Assembly: GCA_019594055.1 (NCBI GenBank)
Contig: JAFDTY010000004.1
Coordinates: 1-44,573 of the forward strand
DNA: 44,573 nt
Direction: 5' to 3'
From: Candidatus Haladaptatiplasma halalkaliphilum
Lineage (GTDB): Archaea; Thermoplasmatota; Thermoplasmata; Halarchaeoplasmatales; Halarchaeoplasmataceae
Notes under the pieces: model-generated
What the model saw: only the letters and a program-made list of their open reading frames with translations
Databases searched by the model: none
What the model was told of the DNA's origin: nothing
Position numbers and translations under genes: made by a program
Part shown: positions 1,427-3,779 of the stretch, in pieces
Position numbering within the stretch: the stretch's first letter is position 1
How the letters are laid out: each line of letters begins with the position of its first letter

Positions 1427-3175
1427 TTACCGTAAAAAGCCTCTGCTACCCCTTATGTACAATACTATGATCAATACCACCAGTAATATCTGCAAGGACA
1501 ACACCAGCCACCGGAGGGATACGGGCTCCGGGTAGATGCTCACATCCACAACCTCTCCGCCACCGGAAGAAACCACTATCTCCCTTTTTACCTCAAGATC
1601 ACCGGAGGTGTACCTCAAAAGAAGGGGATCGCCCTGGGCACAGAAGTAGGGTACGTTCAACGACACGGAATAGTTACCCGGAGAGAAGGTAAAATTTTTC
1701 GCACGGGAGGTGCGCGGATTCATCACGCTGAGAGTCACATCATGCGGAGAATCCATCACCCCACGAACAACGAATGTTCTGTTCAGTTCGATGTATTCGT
1801 GTAAATGGGCCGCCAGGCCACCCTCGTATATCAGGGATACCTCCACACGATGATCACCCAAGCCGTGATAGATGAAGGTGGTACGGTTCTTCAGGGAAAA
1901 TTCCCTCCGGTAAGGACCGTCCCGGGGGATAAAATCTATCTCCACGGATGCGCCATGGAGAGCATGGGATACCCGTGTCTCGAGTAATCCTTCCCCATGG
2001 ATCAGCTCCAGGTCCAAGTAGGGATCCGGAATAATATCCGGTGGACGGATGAAACGCTCCAACCATGGGGACCATCCCAACCTCGAAAATTCCAGGTCGC
2101 CGTACCCGTGGTGGATGCCATGGGTGGGAAAGTAAATCCCTATGCCGTGGGCGTTCCGGGCAGGGTCCCTTTCCAGTGAGTGGACCCTGTGGGCGATAAG
2201 ACTGGAGTTCAACGCTTCCCTTAACATGATACCCGCACGTCCCAGGCGGTGGGAGTCTATACGATGATGCACGTTCATGGTGAAATGGTAAAGGTCCTTG
2301 GGATTGGGGAAGGGTTGGTAGCCCTCGGTCCCTTCCCACGCATCGTGAACTTCCTGATGATAAAGGGGAAGCACCAGTGACAACTCCGATGTGTAATGTT
2401 CGAATTCTTCCACGGGCAGCCTCGATGCGTCTACGGCGGTAAGGGTGGTGGATACGGCGCTATGATTGGCACCCCAATCCACGAACCGGTTCACTATGGC
2501 GGTTGCAAAGTCGGAGGCCTCCATCCCGGGCTCTTCCTTCAACGAGTTCATTATATCGGTGTAGGGCCAACCAGAGATGGGTTCTTCCTTTTCAGAAGCG
2601 ATCATTATACCACAGTGATCTGCAAGTTGGTAGTATACCTCGAACATGCCCATGGTGCACGAATCAAAACCTATTATGTCCAGGTGCAGGCCTTCGAGGG
2701 CCGCCTTCATTTCGGGTAGGGTTAGCAAACTGCCGTCCTCCTCCATGGACATACCCAACCAGCCGTTTCCGTGGCCCCAGAGATTGAGGAAATATCTGCG
2801 GGAAGGAAAATTGGCAGTGGTCCATCGAACGAAATCACCCAGGGTATTACCGTCTGACATGTCCACCTCATGGACCCAGGATGAATTGACCGAGTCCAGG
2901 GGTATATGGTTTATCTTCCCGTCGGCTATCTCCACCAGTCTGCTGTCACCGTAACCCTTCTCATCGGCGAGGACCACCACCGATACCTCACCCCCCATGT
3001 GGACCTTCCGTAAATCCTCGATATCACCCTCTATCATGTCGCTGAGGTCACCCTTGCCACCCATGTAGAACATCAGGGTCCATTCCCTTTCACCGGAGGC
3101 TTCCACACCGGAGTGGGTGATCAATACGGGTGTCAGTATCAACACGATTACCAGCGTTACCGGGATCCTGGGCAT
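1427..3175 (-). CDS. Clostripain-like (C11 family) cysteine peptidase, secreted and C-terminally membrane anchored
   Basis: N-terminal signal peptide; NLWGHGNGW (catalytic His) and IGFDSCTMGMFE (catalytic Cys); C-terminal TM helix followed by RGSRGFLR. Confidence 0.88.
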   Translation of the reverse strand: MPRIPVTLVIVLILTPVLITHSGVEASGEREWTLMFYMGGKGDLSDMIEGDIEDLRKVHMGGEVSVVVLADEKGYGDSRLVEIADGKINHIPLDSVNSSWVHEVDMSDGNTLGDFVRWTTANFPSRRYFLNLWGHGNGWLGMSMEEDGSLLTLPEMKAALEGLHLDIIGFDSCTMGMFEVYYQLADHCGIMIASEKEEPISGWPYTDIMNSLKEEPGMEASDFATAIVNRFVDWGANHSAVSTTLTAVDASRLPVEEFEHYTSELSLVLPLYHQEVHDAWEGTEGYQPFPNPKDLYHFTMNVHHRIDSHRLGRAGIMLREALNSSLIAHRVHSLERDPARNAHGIGIYFPTHGIHHGYGDLEFSRLGWSPWLERFIRPPDIIPDPYLDLELIHGEGLLETRVSHALHGASVEIDFIPRDGPYRREFSLKNRTTFIYHGLGDHRVEVSLIYEGGLAAHLHEYIELNRTFVVRGVMDSPHDVTLSVMNPRTSRAKNFTFSPGNYSVSLNVPYFCAQGDPLLLRYTSGDLEVKREIVVSSGGGEVVDVSIYPEPVSLRWLVLSLQILLVVLIIVLYIRGSRGFLR

Positions 3176-3306
3176 GAAGATTTTAGTTCTTTTTTACTAT
3201 AAATACTTTGCTTTCACGTGTCCTATAGGGGGGAATATTTAAATAGTACGTACATTTAGCTCGTAAGACGCTTGCTTAGAAAACGGGCCTGTAGCTCAGC
3301 CAGGTA

Positions 3307-3334
3307 GGATATAGCATCATGCTTTTCCCTGGAA
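3307..3334 (+). other. Predicted tRNA intron 1 (D-loop)
   Basis: CCAGG (3300-3304) pairs with CCTGG (3328-3332), flanked by bulges TAG and AAA; boundaries may shift 1-2 nt. Confidence 0.75.
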
Positions 3335-3373
3335 AGAGCATCTGGCTTTTAACCAGGTGGTCTGGGGTTCGAT

Positions 3374-3402
3374 AGGAATGCCTACCGGGCACTTCCCGAA
3401 AA
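3374..3402 (+). other. Predicted tRNA intron 2 (T-loop, about position 59/60)
   Basis: Textbook BHB: T stem TGGGG/CCCCA, central helix TTCG (3368-3371)/CGAA (3397-3400), bulges ATA and AAT; leaves a 7-nt T loop TTCGATT. Confidence 0.85.
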
Positions 3403-3423
3403 TCCCCACAGGCCCACTTGGAA

Positions 3424-3521: not shown

Positions 3522-3779
3522 ATGGGTCGTCTGAACGTTATGAAGCATGCCTTGGTACCCATTCATCGACTGGTTCCTCGGGACGAGGAGGCAGAGATAC
3601 TTGGAAAGCTGAAGGCTAGTAAAGGTCAGTTACCAAAAATACTGAAAGCTGATCCCGTTCTTAAACAACTGATAGAAGAACACGGCGATATAGAAAAGGG
3701 ACGATTGATAGAGATCGAGAGAGTAAGTATGACCGCCGGAGTCTCGAAAGCGTATCGTTTGGTAGTAGAGAGAGAATGA
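3522..3779 (+). CDS. rpoH: DNA-directed RNA polymerase subunit H
   Basis: MKHALVPIHRLVPRDEEAEIL...LPKILKADPVLK; precedes rpoB; TATA-like CTATAAACC just upstream. Confidence 0.93.
   Translation: MGRLNVMKHALVPIHRLVPRDEEAEILGKLKASKGQLPKILKADPVLKQLIEEHGDIEKGRLIEIERVSMTAGVSKAYRLVVERE

Follow-up and report, generated by a model that had tools for sequence, protein, structure and literature searches.

Non-canonical D-loop and T-loop introns in a tRNA-Lys(UUU) gene of a Thermoplasmata archaeon and its relatives across Thermoplasmatota

In Thermoproteales, other Crenarchaeota and Nanoarchaeota, small introns with bulge-helix-bulge (BHB) or relaxed motifs interrupt the D, anticodon and T loops of tRNA genes, with up to three per gene, and 20/21 and 59/60 are among the positions listed for them (PMC4090602, PMC4033280). 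Outside Thermoproteales, introns at non-canonical positions, several per gene, are described for the Asgard lineages Atabeyarchaeia and Freyarchaeia, where 92-95% of tRNA genes carry introns (PMC11291895); non-canonical introns also occur in Korarchaeum cryptofilum and Methanopyrus kandleri (PMC4033280, PMC6379350), and the tRNA-Pyl of Ca. Methanohalarchaeum, a euryarchaeal tRNA, has one or two BHB introns (PMC9071458). Euryarchaeota are described as carrying single canonical introns (PMC4090602), and their alpha4 and alpha'2 endonucleases as cleaving canonical BHB motifs only (PMC4033280), broad specificity being conferred by a CSL or ASL (PMC6379350, PMC12397907). In the accepted picture, non-canonical or multiple introns are tied to (alpha beta)2 or epsilon2 endonucleases, or to a specific loop. 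Here we describe a tRNA-Lys(UUU) gene of a Thermoplasmata archaeon that very probably, judged from its sequence and that of its relatives, is a functional, single-copy gene with two protein-spliced introns, processed by EndA and RtcB and vertically inherited.

Gene anatomy and splice motifs

The window, a stretch of 44,573 nucleotides, encodes a complete tRNA-Lys(UUU) on the + strand at 3285-3416, which by sequence reading carries two 29-nt introns, matching the inserts of about 28-29 nt that the initial annotation had placed in the D and T loops. Its layout is GGGCCTG-TA-GCTC-[38-nt D loop]-GAGC-A-TCTGG-CTTTTAA-CCAGG-TGGTC-TGGGG-[36-nt T loop]-CCCCA-CAGGCCC-A. The acceptor stem pairs GGGCCTG (3285-3291) with CAGGCCC (3409-3415) and is followed by the discriminator A3416; the D stem (GCTC/GAGC), anticodon arm (TCTGG-CTTTTAA-CCAGG) and T stem (TGGGG/CCCCA) are equally perfect, their coordinates agreeing with the earlier reading, and the anticodon loop of this gene has no intron, as had also been noted. 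The D loop is 38 nt long against 9 nt in intronless relatives and the T loop 36 nt against 7 nt, and taking out both inserts leaves a perfect cloverleaf. The features of the locus are as follows.

3238-3245, + strand: putative TATA-like box TTTAAATA, 40 nt upstream of the tRNA-Lys gene, assigned from sequence
3285-3305, + strand: exon 1 (acceptor 5' strand, D-stem 5' strand, D loop to position 20)
3306-3334, + strand: intron 1, 29 nt, in the D loop at position 20/21
3335-3373, + strand: exon 2, first A21, the D-stem 3' strand and the anticodon arm (UUU), then, up to its end at 3373, the variable loop, the T-stem 5' strand and the T loop to position 59
3374-3402, + strand: intron 2, 29 nt, in the T loop at position 59/60
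3403-3416, + strand: exon 3 (T60, T-stem 3' strand, acceptor 3' strand, discriminator A73)
3522-3779, + strand: rpoH (RNA polymerase Rpb5 C-terminal family), followed by rpoB

The TATA-like box has a counterpart stretch upstream of the gene in one relative (L035), and the position of the tRNA upstream of the rpoH/RNA polymerase operon is shared with many relatives. Adjoining the tRNA, a 582-aa protein with a weak clostripain-like match is encoded at 1427-3175 on the - strand. ARAGORN and Rfam at the gathering score missed the tRNA-Lys(UUU) and reported only a tRNA-Leu at 783-867; the Rfam score of the tRNA-Lys locus is 17.9 bits, below the gathering score, and an intron-tolerant tRNA model that we built for this analysis scored it at 41 bits, the gene itself being in the training set. 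Three tRNA-Pro genes of the same genome (L221, C90; L224, C51; L226, C83) are missed by the Rfam tRNA model and detected by the local model and by ARAGORN.

The T-loop intron motif is a strict BHB: the helix TTCG (3368-3371)/CGAA (3397-3400) is flanked by the bulges ATA (3372-3374) and AAT (3401-3403), and the T stem serves as the outer helix, just as first annotated. The D-loop intron motif is a relaxed BHB, that is, a bulge-helix-loop (BHL) with a 3-nt bulge, a 4-bp helix and an internal loop. Here CCAG (3300-3303) pairs with CTGG (3329-3332), the 5' and 3' bulges are GTA (3304-3306) and AAA (3333-3335), the inner helix is GGA (3307-3309)/TCC (3326-3328), and the outer side is an internal loop AG/AAA next to the D stem, a perfect outer helix being precluded by the conserved A14-G15. 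For this insert the initial annotation was right about a central helix, the AAA bulge and a loose outer side; its 5-bp helix CCAGG/CCTGG with a TAG bulge was dropped for the 4-bp CCAG/CTGG register with a GTA bulge, which covaries across relatives. In the minimum-energy fold, the T arm takes up the strict BHB and the D arm a bulge-helix-internal-loop; the whole precursor folds 4.3 sd more stably than shuffles.

We compared a non-redundant set of 104 tRNA-Lys(UUU) genes of Thermoplasmatota, drawn from the genes upstream of rpoB in named relatives and from pattern matches in 295 genomes of the phylum. The exon-intron helix of the D loop, whose exon 4-mer varies (CCAG, CTAG, ATAG, GTAG, GCAG, TTCG, TCCG and others), is paired at 97.2% versus 84.8% with shuffled partners, a level reached by none of 2000 shuffles (kinship uncorrected), and versus only 25-46% when the register is slid by 1-2 nt. 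Pairing of the inner helices also exceeds that with shuffled partners (94.4% versus 72.3% in the D loop and 79.2% versus 48.0% in the T loop; 0 of 2000 shuffles in each case, kinship uncorrected). The T-loop helix itself is uninformative within tRNA-Lys because the exon TTCG hardly varies; a tRNA-Glu whose T loop holds an intron has TTCA opposite TGAA, a change that matches on both sides. Cutting after the second bulge nucleotide reproduces the T loop of intronless relatives in 59 of 59 genes and gives D loops ending in GGTA or GGCA in 61 of 62, and cuts after 0, 1 or 3 nucleotides perform worse; the product of excising both introns is a canonical tRNA like that of intronless relatives. Anatomy and relatives together bear out two non-canonical, BHB-type introns, which on this sequence evidence are almost certainly real. 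In the mechanism that we propose, EndA would cut each intron after the second nucleotide of both bulges and RtcB would join the exons into a standard 74-nt tRNA.

Splicing enzymes and the D-loop site

The host genome is that of a Thermoplasmata archaeon (1.82 Mb, 108 contigs, 90% complete). Its RpoB is nearest to that of MAG HAP25 (87%), followed by a MAG group to which Candidatus Halarchaeoplasma halalkaliphilum belongs, and the names of these related MAGs suggest a salt-lake habitat. The initial annotation had made its reading depend on an endonuclease able to process BHB motifs; the genome encodes both EndA and the ligase RtcB. EndA, for which one gene was found, is a complete protein of 353 aa with two repeats, a structural N half and a catalytic C half, in which two PF01974 and two PF02778 stretches are recognized and the Tyr/His/Lys positions of the catalytic repeat are present. 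Its AlphaFold2 monomer model (pLDDT 91) has the M. kandleri subunit fusion 5x89 as the nearest solved structure (TM 0.88/0.92) and matches the A. fulgidus alpha'2 enzyme with a TM of 0.78; by sequence and predicted fold, EndA is a fused two-repeat, alpha'2-like enzyme.

By alignment, EndA has no CSL/ASL, the loop of ~10 residues with a conserved Lys near the active site: its FYG..LSL stretch aligns without gaps to native A. fulgidus, and the alignment is interrupted at this point in the CSL-bearing chimera 3p1y and in A. pernix. The Arg and Trp bulge-recognition pair, which in enzymes of broad specificity stands in place of two Arg, was not found in EndA, whose C-terminal motif IKRETP has its Arg at the column where two aligned sequences (L080 and L101) have Trp. 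A. pernix EndA also has Trp at this column. The earlier claim that relaxed motifs need an endonuclease of broad specificity is challenged by the only EndA found being without CSL/ASL, and a crenarchaeal-type enzyme was rejected as a requirement, since the 90% complete genome yielded neither a CSL/ASL nor a further EndA gene.

By the published rule, EndA should cut the D-loop site poorly, because the site has no proper outer helix and the enzyme no CSL/ASL. A BHL motif together with such an enzyme would suit a pathway in which the introns are real but EndA does not act alone on the D-loop intron, a further factor assisting or removal of the T-loop intron coming first. We regard such a pathway as unlikely, if still deserving some weight, since homodimeric enzymes are stated to cut BHL-like motifs (PMC8707768) and no second EndA gene turned up. 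The literature on homodimeric enzymes and BHL substrates is split, PMC4033280 and PMC12397907 standing against PMC8707768 and PMC6379350, the last of which has the A. fulgidus enzyme cutting a BHL-like motif at 37/38 in full-length pre-tRNA. We lean, without strong conviction, towards the loop-less fused EndA of Thermoplasmatota removing both relaxed D-loop introns and strict introns of the T and anticodon loops.

The locus differs in several ways from the closest described systems. Thermoproteales, other Crenarchaeota and Nanoarchaeota are described with (alpha beta)2 enzymes, whereas Thermoplasmatota combine two fixed sites over many families with a fused EndA without CSL. The EndA of K. cryptofilum and M. 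kandleri is near the present type, but the korarchaeal homodimeric enzyme is said to have a specific loop and that of M. kandleri is described as two subunits, (alpha beta)2, with constrained broad specificity (PMC4033280, PMC6379350). The tRNA-Pyl introns of Ca. Methanohalarchaeum concern another tRNA and another class (PMC9071458), and the genome studied here, unlike those of Atabeyarchaeia and Freyarchaeia, shows non-canonical introns in just two of the tRNAs found, Lys(UUU) and Arg(CCG).

Distribution, copy number and inheritance

A D-loop intron is present in 62 of the 104 genes (24-62 nt), a T-loop intron in 59 (19-66 nt) and a canonical 37/38 intron in 22; 36 genes combine just the D-loop and T-loop introns, 13 carry the full set of three and 32 are intronless. 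Methanomassiliicoccus-type genomes (L046, L060) are among the carriers. When 60 sampled genomes, the intron states of six of them assigned by hand, were grouped by family code into 28 families, the D-loop intron was found in 15 families, the T-loop intron in 10 and either in 17, so the rarity that had been assumed for euryarchaeal-type genomes does not hold in this phylum. Intronless genomes include those of Ferroplasma, Acidiplasma and Aciduliprofundum, which may be why early surveys overlooked the pattern. The inserts are more than chance events because they recur at identical positions in dozens of independent assemblies; their sequences diverge between relatives. Three close relatives from the window's own clade (L038, L039, L076) have a precisely empty D site and keep the T-loop intron. 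On an rpoB FastTree tree of 68 genomes, three changes are needed for the D-loop intron, three for the 37/38 intron and six for the T-loop intron; these few changes therefore point to vertical inheritance with occasional loss or gain, between which the counts cannot separate. In our proposal, vertical descent would have carried the introns through much of Thermoplasmatota, with precise losses in several lineages.

The N-terminal repeat of EndA matches PF01974 with a median of 55.8 bits in genomes with a D-loop or T-loop intron and 28.9 bits in those without (58 genomes; Mann-Whitney p = 2e-8, phylogeny uncorrected; exceptions include families f21, f29 and f34). Most intron-bearing lineages keep the repeat well conserved; it is degenerate in Thermoplasmatales and in families f31 and f37, which are without the introns. 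Co-evolution of repeat and introns is possible on these sequence scores, which are uncorrected for phylogeny.

Non-canonical inserts were also seen in other tRNAs. The tRNA-Arg(CCG) of the same genome (C61:262-368, - strand; L034/L249) has a D-loop insert with TAGC facing GCTA; four relatives (L250-L253) have a D-loop insert at the matching site with diverged sequence, and three of them (L250, L252, L253) a T-loop insert besides. Elsewhere in Thermoplasmatota (L241, L242, L243, L246), non-canonical introns occur in the T loop of Arg(UCU), the D loop of Asn(GUU), the T loop of Glu(UUC), with TTCA facing TGAA, and the T loop of Lys(CUU).

An intact intronless tRNA-Lys(UUU) elsewhere in the genome had been named as evidence that would count against the gene; a pattern search of the ~90% complete genome found no second tRNA-Lys(UUU), intronless or otherwise, the window gene being the sole match. 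AAA codons occur 100 times in seven large window genes. A decayed pseudogene, with disruptive inserts and with the intact tRNA-Lys(UUU) encoded on sequence absent from the assembly, would be allowed by ~90% completeness and would be in keeping with a locus that standard tRNA finders overlook. We consider it very improbable, since every stem is perfect, insert positions and compensatory changes recur in dozens of genomes, and the UUU pattern usually has one match per genome across the 295 genomes. A mature tRNA that keeps the inserts, with its D and T loops enlarged, is just as improbable, because D-/T-loop contacts would be disrupted, exon-intron pairing covaries in the manner of a splice motif, intronless orthologues have exactly the spliced loops, and the splicing enzymes are encoded in the genome. 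For the spliced, functional gene that we favor, we infer expression, the actual cuts, ligation and EndA as the responsible enzyme.

Implications for the enzyme-intron rule

Non-canonical tRNA introns are an already known kind. A limited literature search found no reports of them in Thermoplasmata, and within that search their phylum-wide, vertically inherited presence in Thermoplasmatota appears to be new. Interest centers on this distribution and on its pairing with a loop-less fused EndA. Common tools undercount archaeal tRNAs in Thermoplasmatota, and D-loop and T-loop introns alongside such an enzyme make the enzyme-intron rule directly testable. If our reading is true, the two- or three-intron tRNA-Lys(UUU) would date far back in the phylum, and non-canonical introns would not be linked to loop-bearing enzymes as a general rule.
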